A DNA stretch of 28,261 nucleotides, taken from IMG/VR virus record IMGVR_UViG_3300021061_000046, positions 1-28,261 of that record; one strand, 5' to 3'. Both the position numbers and the translations under genes were made by a program. Below the pieces are notes generated by a model. The model made no database searches and was not told the origin of the DNA. It worked only from the letters and a program-made list of their open reading frames with translations. This DNA is from a virus. Below, piece after piece: positions 3,934 through 6,481 of this stretch (the stretch's first letter is position 1; each line of letters begins with the position of its first letter).

Positions 3934-4097
3934 ACTCAATTAAAAAGGTTACGGAATTTGATTGGTGTTTGTTTTGCGAAAAGAAAACATTTCAGCTTAC
4001 ATTTAAGGACAAAACTCATTCGGAAAGTCTTTGCTATGGTTGCGGGAAAATAAAATCACTTCCAAATAAAAGGAGAAGAGTCAATGTCAACAATTAA
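3930..4097 (+). CDS. 55-aa zinc-ribbon protein
   Basis: Start chosen at ATG 3930: GGGAGG ends 8 nt upstream and the ATGA overlaps the previous stop. Two knuckles, CLFCEKK near residue 14 and CYGCGKI near residue 35, form a zinc ribbon, followed by a basic tail (NKRRRVNV). Its first residues, MNSIKKVT, are repeated at the starts of the next two translation units. It overlaps the following gene by 14 bp. Confidence 0.65.
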   Translation: MNSIKKVTEFDWCLFCEKKTFQLTFKDKTHSESLCYGCGKIKSLPNKRRRVNVNN

Positions 4098-4207
4098 AAA
4101 GGTTACTTGTGATTGTGGAGAAAGTGTTTCGGAAGATTGGATAAGAGAAAAGGGCTGTTGCCCTAATTGTCAGGAGGATTTAAAAATGCCAGCAATTAAA
4201 AAGGTTA
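3937..4207 (+). repeat. Three copies of CAATTAAAAAGGTTA at translation starts
   Basis: The repeat lies at 3937-3951, 4091-4105 and 4193-4207. Each copy sits 5-7 bases after the A of an ATG, so all three encode IKKV at residues 4-7 (MNSIKKV, MSTIKKV, MPAIKKV). Each ATG has its own GGAGG or GGAG. The bodies that follow are unrelated, so the shared piece is a start module: either a duplicated 5' end or a conserved mRNA signal. Confidence 0.6.
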
Positions 4208-4353
4208 AGCATACGGAAGAAGAATTAGAAAATCCAAAAGAAAAATCTATTCAACAAGTAATTAGCCTTATGATTGAAAATAAAATTAGCATTGAAGATA
4301 TTTTATATGGTTTGCGCGACCGCGTTATGTCATCAGACTGTGAAAAGGAATAA
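4084..4353 (+). CDS. 89-aa zinc-finger/helical fusion with internal start
   Basis: The N-terminal 34 residues hold CDC near residue 9 and CCPNC near residue 26, a compact metal site. The C-terminal part, from Met35, is acidic and helical (SIQQVISLMIENKISIEDIL). Met35 at 4186 has its own perfect CAGGAGG 8 nt upstream and the same IKKV leader as the full start. The locus could therefore make two proteins, 89 aa and 55 aa, or be two ancestral genes joined in frame. Function unknown. Confidence 0.65.
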   Translation: MSTIKKVTCDCGESVSEDWIREKGCCPNCQEDLKMPAIKKVKHTEEELENPKEKSIQQVISLMIENKISIEDILYGLRDRVMSSDCEKE

Positions 4354-4454
4354 TGAAATTCTTTAAGCTTGTTGAAGTGTTTTTGTATACCGTGACTTTG
4401 ATTGCTATTATTCTTTTTGTGGTACTCGTACTATACATTATGGCGATAAAATGA
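4353..4454 (+). CDS. 33-aa single-span membrane peptide
   Basis: Overlaps the stop before it (TAATG) and the integrase start after it (ATGA). Residues 8-30 are almost entirely hydrophobic (FLYTVTLIAIILFVVLVLYI), giving one transmembrane helix with short charged ends. It may be a small inner-membrane effector or partly serve to couple translation into the integrase gene. Confidence 0.6.
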   Translation: MKFFKLVEVFLYTVTLIAIILFVVLVLYIMAIK

Positions 4455-5296
4455 TTACTGAATTTATTAACTACTTATCTGTAGAGCGCGGATTGTCTGA
4501 TAATAGTTTAAGTGCCTATGAGTCAGACCTTAAGAAATATATGTCCTATCTGGATAAATTAAATATTTCTTTGGGCGCGGTTACGAGAAAAGACATTACA
4601 GACTTTCTCCTATATGAAAAAGAAAGGAATCAGGAATCTAGCTCTATCGCTCGGGCCTTGGTATCAATCAAGCTATTTCACCGTTTTTTAGTCAAGGAAG
4701 GCTTTATCAAAGAGGACGTGACCAATGTTTTGGAGTCTCCTAAGCTGTGGAAAAGGCTCCCCTCATTTCTCACGGTAAAAGAAGTCAATACCCTGCTTAA
4801 TGTAAACACCAGAAAAAGGCTTGGTGTAAGAGACAAGTTAATTTTAGAACTTTTATATTCCTGCGGAGTCAGAGTCTCGGAACTGGTCAACATTAAAATG
4901 TCTGACATCAATTTAGACGGTCAGATTAAATGTTTCGGCAAAGGCAGTAAAGAAAGAATTGTTTTATTTGGGAAGCCTGCTAGAGAAGTATTAAAAAAAT
5001 ATCTATCAAGCCATAATCCTAAGGAGTATTTATTCAGTAGCGCAAGAGGCAAACTGACCCGCCAAAGTGTTTGGCATATTATTAAAAAATACGGAAAGCT
5101 TGCAGGTATCAGAAAAAAAATAAGTCCTCACACCATGAGGCATACTTTTGCGACCCATTTATTAGAACGTGGCGCAGACCTAAGAATCGTACAGGAACTT
5201 TTAGGCCATGCCGATATTGCCACGACCCAAATTTATACCCATGTATCAAAAGAGCATTTAAAATCCGTACATAAGGAGTTTCACCCAAGGAATTAA
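4451..5296 (+). CDS. XerC/XerD-like tyrosine recombinase (phage integrase)
   Basis: 281 aa, close to XerC/D length. The N-terminal SAM-like core-binding domain spans residues 1-90. The catalytic domain has Arg141 (CGVRVSEL), Lys164 (FGKGSK), His227 and Arg230 (SPHTMRHTFATHLL), His253 (LLGHADIATTQ) and nucleophile Tyr262 (IYTHV), so all six active-site residues are present. It would cut and join DNA through a 3'-phosphotyrosine to integrate and excise the genome or resolve multimers. Translation is coupled to the 33-aa membrane peptide. No excisionase is recognised. An attP should lie near, most likely in 5297-5352, but I cannot define its core. Confidence 0.93.
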   Translation: MITEFINYLSVERGLSDNSLSAYESDLKKYMSYLDKLNISLGAVTRKDITDFLLYEKERNQESSSIARALVSIKLFHRFLVKEGFIKEDVTNVLESPKLWKRLPSFLTVKEVNTLLNVNTRKRLGVRDKLILELLYSCGVRVSELVNIKMSDINLDGQIKCFGKGSKERIVLFGKPAREVLKKYLSSHNPKEYLFSSARGKLTRQSVWHIIKKYGKLAGIRKKISPHTMRHTFATHLLERGADLRIVQELLGHADIATTQIYTHVSKEHLKSVHKEFHPRN

Positions 5297-5352: not shown

Positions 5353-5430
5353 ATGATTGTAATATTTTACATTACACCTAGAATATTCGGGCGAAAGGAG
5401 AATCAACGCGCCCTATGTATTACACCCTAA
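5353..5430 (+). CDS. Possible 25-aa leader peptide overlapping the regulator gene
   Basis: An ATG at 5353 preceded by CGGAG opens a 25-codon frame (MIVIFYITPRIFGRK...) that ends at 5430, 16 bp inside the next gene in another frame. An inverted repeat TGTAAT/ATTACA (5358-5363, 5371-5376) lies inside it. Since the regulator gene has its AGGAG 14 nt from its ATG, the leader may deliver ribosomes by coupling. Confidence 0.35.
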   Translation: MIVIFYITPRIFGRKENQRALCITP

Positions 5431-5822
5431 AAGCAAAAAAAGCATTTTGGGAAGCTTTAATTGCTTTTAAAAACGAATGGAACGGTAAATATACAATGGC
5501 TGACCTAAGCCGAGATATTGGTTATAATCAAGGCTATGTTACAAACGTCATTAACAATGAACACAGGGGCGAAATCTCAATCCGATTTGTTTGTACTGCC
5601 ATGATGAATTTAAAAATCGGATTCCATGAAGCCTTTGAAATTGTGTCGGTAGACACAAGCACAGAAAAATATACACCCTCAAAGACTATCGGACAGTTAG
5701 AACACGCTGACCCGATAGCTGGGAAATCGGTGCAAAGAATACGTCTAAAGGTTCATTCACCGGACGTTTGGAGAAAAAAATTTAATGAACAAGTGAAAAA
5801 AAATTTGACAAATAAATATTAA
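5415..5822 (+). CDS. Helix-turn-helix regulator
   Basis: 135 aa. Residues about 25-65 (YTMADLSRDIGYNQGYVTNV, then a helix with FVCTAMMNLKIGF) look like a Cro/CI-type helix-turn-helix: the .DLS..IGY..GYV..V core places the turn near Gly36. The C-terminal half is basic and lacks an autoproteolysis Ser/Lys site, so it is not a LexA-type cleavable repressor. A role as lysogeny or early regulator is inferred from fold and position beside the integrase. Its AGGAG is 14 nt from the ATG; an ACG 5 nt after AGGAG would add three residues. Confidence 0.7.
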   Translation: MYYTLKAKKAFWEALIAFKNEWNGKYTMADLSRDIGYNQGYVTNVINNEHRGEISIRFVCTAMMNLKIGFHEAFEIVSVDTSTEKYTPSKTIGQLEHADPIAGKSVQRIRLKVHSPDVWRKKFNEQVKKNLTNKY

Positions 5823-5833
5823 TAGTGTATCTT
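5805..5833 (+). promoter_or_regulatory. Consensus-like sigma-70 promoter for an RNA
   Basis: TTGACA (5805-5810), 17-bp spacer, TATCTT (5828-5833); predicted start near 5840. The -35 lies in the last codons of the regulator gene. The downstream sequence folds extensively and ends in a U-tract at 5967-5972, so the promoter appears dedicated to a short RNA, with the transglycosylase as possible readthrough product. Confidence 0.7.
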
Positions 5834-5839
5834 ACGCAC

Positions 5840-5972
5840 AAATGACACTAACCTGCGAGAAAACCAATGATAAAACAAGCCGATAAAAATTCAAAGCCCT
5901 GTCCCTCTTTGTGTCAATCCACAATGAGCGCAAGCTCAATTTCTCGCAGAAATCTGGGGGACGGGCTTTTTT
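5840..5972 (+). ncRNA. Candidate pseudoknotted small RNA with GNRA hairpin
   Basis: Four pairing segments occur in order A-B-A'-B'. A is CTGCGAGAAA (5853-5862) with TTTCTCGCAG (5940-5949), a perfect 10 bp. B is AAAGCCC-T-GTCCC (5893-5905) with GGGACGGGCTTT (5958-5969), 12 bp with one bulged base. That order is an H-type pseudoknot. Between them TGAGC-GCAA-GCTCA (5925-5938) forms a hairpin with a GNRA tetraloop. B' runs into six U residues, as in an intrinsic terminator. With the promoter at 5805-5833 this predicts an RNA of about 130 nt. I do not recognise the class. Confidence 0.6.
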
Positions 5973-6481
5973 CTTTGTCTGAAAGAGTGGTAAGCTTTTC
6001 TTTACGTCCCATAGACCAGATTATAGGGCGTAGCGCAGGAACGGCCTTTTTAGGCCGTTTTTGTGCGATTCTAGCCCTTTTTATAGCCTTACCGTCCGTA
6101 TTTGCCTCCGAACCCCTACAAGTCGATTTAAACGCAATTAAACAAATAGAATCTTCGGGCAATCCTTTTGCCTTTAATCCAAGGTCAAAAGCGACAGGCT
6201 TATATCAAATAACGCCAATTTGCCTTAAAGACTATAACCAATTCAATAAAACCTCTTTTTCCGCACTAGACCTATTCAATCCTGAAGTAAACCAGTTAAT
6301 CGCAACCTGGTATCTCACTAAAAGAATACCGCAATTATTAAAGCACTTCGGTCATAAAGACACCACCCAAAATAGACTGATTGCCTATAACTGCGGAATC
6401 TCTTGTCTTAAACGCAATTCCCTTCCAACAGAAACCAAACAGTACCTAAAAAAATACGAAAGAGAGGCAAACCATGTTTAA
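5867..6481 (+). CDS. Secreted lytic transglycosylase (SLT family); start uncertain
   Basis: The enzyme part starts near residue 88 of the longest frame: IKQIESSGNP with catalytic Glu95, then GLYQIT (111-116) and LIAYNCG (171-177), the three signature blocks of the SLT/GEWL fold that cleaves peptidoglycan between MurNAc and GlcNAc. A Sec signal-type stretch (FCAILALFIALPSVFA, cleavage after residue 80) precedes it. The first 55 residues from ATG 5867 are Ser-rich, look non-coding and overlap the structured RNA. No ATG lies between the U-tract at 5972 and the signal peptide; TTG 5975, GTG 5987 or ACG 6041 are the in-frame alternatives. Role: lysis or local wall opening. It overlaps the next gene by 8 bp. 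Confidence 0.85.
   Translation: MIKQADKNSKPCPSLCQSTMSASSISRRNLGDGLFSLSERVVSFSLRPIDQIIGRSAGTAFLGRFCAILALFIALPSVFASEPLQVDLNAIKQIESSGNPFAFNPRSKATGLYQITPICLKDYNQFNKTSFSALDLFNPEVNQLIATWYLTKRIPQLLKHFGHKDTTQNRLIAYNCGISCLKRNSLPTETKQYLKKYEREANHV
6040..6062 (+). terminator. Hairpin with short U-tail before the signal peptide
   Basis: AACGGCCT (6040-6047) and AGGCCGTT (6052-6059) form an 8-bp stem with a UUUU loop, followed by three further T. It resembles an intrinsic terminator but lies inside the transglycosylase reading frame, where it also encodes TAFLGRF. It could limit expression of the enzyme or be a coincidence of the coding sequence. Confidence 0.4.

Follow-up and report, generated by a model that had tools for sequence, protein, structure and literature searches.

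The locus considered here raises the question of whether a short stretch in front of a transglycosylase gene, equipped with its own promoter, encodes a functional structured RNA and, if so, whether that RNA acts on its own or through the genes that follow it. The locus lies in an IMG/VR virus record of 28,261 bases, analysed at full length and referred to as the window. Terminase genes on the - strand are followed on the + strand by a recombinase gene, a 135-aa ORF, the RNA element and a 204-aa ORF, 3' of which lie small early genes and genes for a replication protein and an exonuclease. The three genes that frame the element are:

4451-5296, + strand: XerD-grade tyrosine recombinase (TIGR02225, 358 bits against a cut-off of 329.6)
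5415-5822, + strand: 135-aa ORF upstream of the element, named a regulator in the initial annotation; family match not found
5867-6481, + strand: 204-aa ORF with an SLT transglycosylase domain at its end (PF01464, E 4.7e-13)

The predicted fold of the 135-aa ORF is too poor for use (mean pLDDT 44.5). The window integrase exceeds the XerD equivalog cut-off, which is uncommon among phage integrases. The gene downstream of the element is an SLT transglycosylase gene; the domain takes up the last 140 residues of the ORF, and homology to other SLT proteins begins no earlier than residue 61 (position 6047), which leaves the 60 codons before it, where the ORF overlaps the RNA, only putatively coding. 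The overlap that had been reported between the RNA and the 5' end of the transglycosylase gene thus holds for the ORF as read from ATG 5867 and not for its SLT-homologous part.

An interleaved pair of helices behind a promoter

The element opens with a sigma-70-type promoter whose -35 hexamer sits inside the last codons of the upstream ORF; the + strand of the window has just four promoter sites matching at least 10 of 12 consensus positions. Its parts are as follows:

5805-5833, + strand: promoter TTGACA (5805-5810), 17-nt spacer, TATCTT (5828-5833); 10/12 consensus matches
5823-5851, unstranded: operator-like inverted repeat TAGTGT (5823-5828) / ACACTAA (5845-5851), flanking the -10 and the start site
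5840-5972, + strand: predicted short RNA of ~133 nt, beginning ~7 nt past the -10 and running through T6, on the basis of promoter and U-tract
5853-5862, + strand: helix A 5' strand, CTGCGAGAAA, containing GAG, a weak Shine-Dalgarno-like triplet for ATG 5867
5863-5892, + strand: loop L1, A-rich, 30 nt, with the ATG at 5867, 4 nt past A
5893-5907, + strand: helix B 5' strand, AAAGCCC(T)GTCCCTC, with a bulged T
5909-5924, + strand: hairpin P3, TTGTG-TCAATC-CACAA
5925-5938, + strand: hairpin P4, TGAGC-GCAA-GCTCA, with a GCAA loop
5940-5949, + strand: helix A 3' strand (A'), TTTCTCGCAG, pairing with 5853-5862 as 10 perfect bp
5956-5969, + strand: helix B 3' strand (B'), GGGGGACGGGCTTT, pairing with 5893-5907
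5967-5972, + strand: T6, an intrinsic-terminator-like end directly 3' of the G+C part of B'

The initial annotation had described the promoter, a perfect 10-bp helix, the A-B-A'-B' order and a terminal U6, and each of these was borne out. Its perfect 12-bp helix was not: helix B consists of two blocks of 7 pairs, 14 bp in all, which include a single G-U pair and are separated by a bulged T. Watson-Crick pairing in B is uninterrupted for 7 bp at most, and the word perfect does not apply to it. The GCAA hairpin placed between the helices is present as P4, and P3 had been overlooked; both sit between B and A'. The resulting spacings are 48 nt from the -35 to A, then A 10, L1 30, B 15 (14 pairs), L2 32, A' 10, L3 6 and B' 14. 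As predicted from these parts, the conserved core is an H-type-like pseudoknot in which A (10 bp), an A-rich loop, B (14 bp), two small hairpins, A' and B' succeed one another. The inverted repeat at the promoter is a possible, putative repressor site.

The summed helix (stacking) energy of A and B, -45.1 kcal/mol, is the best in the window by ~8. It was matched by none of 10,000 local shuffles and by 6 of 300 dinucleotide-shuffled whole windows, so that the claim that such helices are very unlikely by chance stands locally and has to be tempered window-wide (p ~0.02). The nested MFE of the element has a z of -3.3, and with a scoring blind to the bulged B the interleaved pair fell within chance for the window. 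Taken alone, the window statistics are suggestive, not overwhelming; with a window-wide p of only ~0.02, conviction has to come from conservation in a second virus.

A second copy with the same geometry and different letters

Rfam 15 gave no match anywhere in the window at the gathering threshold and, on 5780-6100 with E up to 10, chance-level matches only, all far below gathering scores, in agreement with the earlier remark that the RNA matches no known family. Close relatives sought by the regulator, by the SLT protein and by the exact A/A' pattern were not found. A terminase search led to a small clade, and its nearest member, L014, whose terminase is the closest at 73% identity, carries a knot directly 5' of an HTH gene and an SLT gene, again promoter-proximal. 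The L014 contig belongs to a MAG with the title Parcubacteria, and its host is uncertain; Rfam with E up to 10 returned nothing on its copy.

From its TTGACA the L014 layout continues with 48 nt, then CCTTGGACGG, an A-rich stretch of 31 nt and GACCGGGTCGCTGA; a 31-nt segment holding two hairpins follows, then CCGTCCAAGG, 1 nt and TCAGCGGCTCGGTC. Set side by side (window/L014), the spacings are 48/48 from the -35 to A, 10/10 for A, 30/31 for L1, 14/14 for B and 32/31 for L2; L3 is unlike, at 6 nt in the window and 1 nt in L014. An ATG lies 4 nt past helix A in the window and 5 nt past it in L014, 26 nt before B in both. All 24 A/B pairs are standard in both viruses, and in 20 of them both sides have changed (8/10 in A, 12/14 in B). 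Because a MAFFT alignment of the two copies misplaces helix A, pairs were counted by structural position. The L014 hairpins read TATGTG-TAAC-CACATA (P3) and TTCGG-GCAAT-CCGAA (P4), and the P3-P4 segment is the part where sequence similarity persists: 0 of 4000 shuffles were as good, the other segments being at chance. Across 1.6 Mb, with both strands counted, the composite two-hairpin motif turned up nowhere but in the window and L014, and 380 genomes from the phylum to which L014's bin belongs contained no instance.

L014 was first spotted by complementarity, so pairing alone proves little and it is the matching geometry and promoter offset that carry weight. Among 160 shuffles of L014 the strict geometry appeared at -38 kcal/mol or lower once, and none reached -51.2. 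With two good sequences, statistics of the R-scape type are impossible; within that compass, the covariation check that the initial annotation had proposed for related phages was positive. By helix order, lengths, spacings, promoter offset, kept pairs and shared hairpin sequence, L014 holds a homologous element. That both copies arose by unrelated coincidences would fit the 2% of whole-window shuffles that reach the energy and the frequency of interleaved helices of -40 kcal/mol in G+C-rich coding DNA; near-identical geometry, an identical promoter offset and similar hairpins in the virus nearest by terminase make this very improbable. The sequence features, their geometry, the second virus and the pairing kept through change are direct observations, and on them the element is probably a real, conserved and functional RNA pseudoknot. 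The same knot, at the same promoter distance and with nearly all letters different in a related virus, suggests an undescribed RNA switch heading the early gene cluster.

Past B' the L014 copy lacks a U-tract, and it continues toward the downstream genes. A 56-codon ORF (2181-2351, - strand) runs there from 5 nt past helix A through the knot and ends at the HTH start (TGAAATG); this ORF, whose codon usage is poor, could encode a coupled leader peptide.

Distribution beyond the two copies

In 722 kb searched, a knot with a 10/12 promoter at 44-53 nt was found only in the window, in L014 and, weaker, in L064, in all three within the stretch from integrase or regulator to the SLT gene. The element is absent from the sequence searched in L004, L025-L030 (terminase 61-66% identical) and most SLT relatives (L061-L063, L072); with these SLT- or TerL-related viruses lacking it, its distribution is patchy.

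The L064 candidate lies between the integrase and the early genes, and 6 of 4000 local shuffles were as good. The same stretch has a strong, purely nested fold that is better than the knot, for which reason the L064 knot is uncertain and is kept as an analogue only. This leader (3989-4320), with early genes on one side and a tyrosine integrase on the other, has a TTGACA promoter. A stretch of 17 nt in it is the complement of the 5' arm of a strong terminator with a GAAA loop (4239-4282), and a second terminator lies at 4284-4322. Judged by this arrangement, it looks like a classical antiterminator/terminator switch and would support transcription control at this stretch in such viruses; the L064 RNA itself may belong to a different family.

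Further matches were rejected or set aside. The one shared by L055 and L056 lies inside a coding gene common to the two viruses, and a T-tailed match in L025/L026 is weak (-33.5) and overlaps the TerS gene on the opposite strand. A match at L041 3152-3298 (-73.8 kcal/mol) lies within a 315-aa ORF and has no promoter; its interleaved helices include a perfect 22-bp inverted repeat, perhaps a small insertion.

A possible structured leader of the early operon

The structured region of the window reaches past 5972, where the initial annotation had ended it, up to 6066. Two more structures lie between that point and the start of SLT homology at 6047:

6003-6032, + strand: further stem TACGTCCCATA.../GGGCGTA, from the predicted fold
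6033-6066, + strand: 15-bp terminator-like hairpin GCGCAGGAACGGCCT/AGGCCGTTTTTGTGC with a T-rich end

Folding z is -5.4 for 5975-6066 and -4.8 for the whole of 5840-6066. The 5' strand of the further stem offers B' an alternative partner (5953-5963 against 6005-6015, 11 nt, 82%) and is thus a possible switch partner. Intrinsic terminators normally have short loops; the B'/T6 end, where B encloses 48 nt, was not called by a terminator scanner. The hairpin at 6033-6066 is a more classical terminator than B', but its Us lie partly within the stem. Given this second hairpin, and an L014 copy that lacks the U-tract, the description of the RNA as self-contained is doubtful.

We consider it an even call that the element is a promoter-proximal structured leader RNA, absent from Rfam, which heads the early/transglycosylase operon and whose folding controls downstream expression. 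That it is transcribed, that it terminates transcription and that its target lies in cis is what we infer, and the same applies to any ligand. When growing lengths are folded stepwise, A-A' is the MFE at 5949-5961 and B-B' from 5964. During transcription A-A' would accordingly close first, and as B' emerges B-B' would form and lock the knot just as the polymerase arrives at T6. In this virus the locked knot might end transcription, yielding the short RNA of ~133 nt, or stall the polymerase; a polymerase passing T6 would then meet the second terminator-like hairpin ahead of the transglycosylase coding domain. Whether or not the knot forms would set how the downstream genes are expressed, and knot formation may be modulated by something that recognises both conserved hairpins. 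The tandem terminator-like hairpins of the window and the L064 terminator with its long competing upstream complement point to such a leader. Since the U-tract is missing in L014, termination at B' is not conserved and would at best be a feature of the window virus. What the two viruses share in function could be ribosome access at the ATG 4-5 nt past A, or else the hairpins being shown to a partner.

The main alternative is a stand-alone RNA acting in trans, as a base-pairing sRNA or a protein decoy, with the ~133-nt transcript to T6 as its product and the two hairpins shown to a partner. The window does have its own promoter and U-tract, and hairpin sequences are conserved while the helices vary freely; in L014, however, the RNA lacks the U-tract and runs into the 56-codon ORF and the HTH gene, and because A and B are not conserved in sequence they contain no shared base-pairing seed. 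We regard this as unlikely, if a serious contender. The antitoxin RNA of a type III-like system put forward at the outset is unlikely and found no support: 5780-6030 contains no tandem repeat array (the one row returned is a 1.9-copy match at 6043-6061), PADLOC gave no defence-system match in the neighbouring genes, and a ToxN/AbiQ search (PF13958) had no match, although its control likewise gave no signal.

Control of translation initiation, by analogy with the E. coli alpha and rpsO operator pseudoknots, would have A hold the ribosome-binding site and A-A' pairing or the knot block or entrap the ribosome. The ATG placed alike in both viruses speaks for it, as does a frame open through the knot, for 56 codons to the HTH start in L014 and for 204 codons to the SLT gene in the window, where the frame from ATG 5867 crosses the whole structured region (65 open codons by chance, ~0.023). 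Yet the Shine-Dalgarno of ATG 5867 is weak (GAG), against AAGGAG-like motifs in most genes of the virus, the RNA-overlapping part of this ORF and its L014 counterpart have codon usage like off-frame sequence, and the two peptides are unrelated, with SLT homology beginning 60 codons later; we think it rather improbable. The inverted repeats might instead serve as DNA, as an operator or a recombination site near the XerD-type recombinase, and the operator-like repeat at the promoter fits that idea, as does the nearby recombinase gene. Helices that interleave, with hairpin loops and with single-stranded spacers of conserved length, are features of RNA, though, no dif-like site (the dif/attP idea) rose above chance, and the L014 contig has no XerD match, which leaves a DNA element scarcely credible.

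Relation to known RNA switches

Riboswitch knots of the preQ1-II type run from helix 1 through an A-rich loop to helix 2, an inserted hairpin, helix 1' and helix 2', and the window element follows this order of helices and loops. It differs in its long helices of 10 and 14 bp (those of preQ1-II are short), in having two inserted hairpins and in lacking both the conserved binding-core sequence and an Rfam match even at E 10.

In its working the element resembles most closely, by analogy, IsrK of Gifsy-1 and the translational operator pseudoknots. In the available part of the IsrK report, one promoter of the Salmonella prophage Gifsy-1 yields a short terminated RNA and a read-through mRNA into phage genes, and whether a small ORF and the gene after it are expressed depends on alternative RNA helices, a dual function established by experiment (PMC4825925). 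The window layout is compatible with a short RNA plus read-through, that of L014 being without the U-tract; here the dual function is inferred only, whereas the partner genes of IsrK are antQ and anrP, and that part of the report gives no pseudoknot of the present architecture (PMC4825925). The E. coli alpha-operon (uS4) and rpsO (uS15) operators have an mRNA pseudoknot by the start codon that takes in the ribosome-binding site (PMC10931766). The likeness lies in a knot near a putative promoter-proximal start codon in both viruses; unlike those operators, the present element precedes genes that are not ribosomal-protein genes, has long helices A and B free in sequence and has no known protein ligand (PMC10931766). 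In the timP mRNA, mutually exclusive leader folds, one of them a pseudoknot needed for translation, set translation, but timP encodes a type I toxin and has an antisense RNA as its counterpart, a pair not found here (PMC11228461).

It is tempting to go further, and tentatively possible, that these copies represent a new RNA family of phage pseudoknot regulators with a fixed promoter-knot distance, long helices held by complementarity only and conserved recognition hairpins, in which RNA folding controls entry into the early/lysis operon. If so, the free change of A and B would permit virus-specific, immunity-like self-recognition, and a motif absent from Rfam would join the small set of switches known to act at the RNA level in early operons of phages, with an example from a little-studied group of environmental viruses. 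A knot retained while nearly all paired bases change is rarely caught from so few sequences. Further copies may be sought as an interleaved pair of helices, 10 bp and 14 bp long, that lies 48 nt behind a TTGACA and comes with two hairpins, one of the form TGTGT..AA..CCACA and the other a GCAA hairpin.

Two minor observations concern the sequence just downstream. At 6026-6047, GGGCGTAGCGCAGG is like a tRNA 5' end (acceptor and start of the D-arm); tRNA calling there returned none, and the resemblance may reflect an attachment-site remnant or be coincidence. The SLT protein (6062-6478) has its closest annotated phage relatives among lysozymes and hypothetical proteins of the Cellulophaga phages phi38:1 and Calle (33%).
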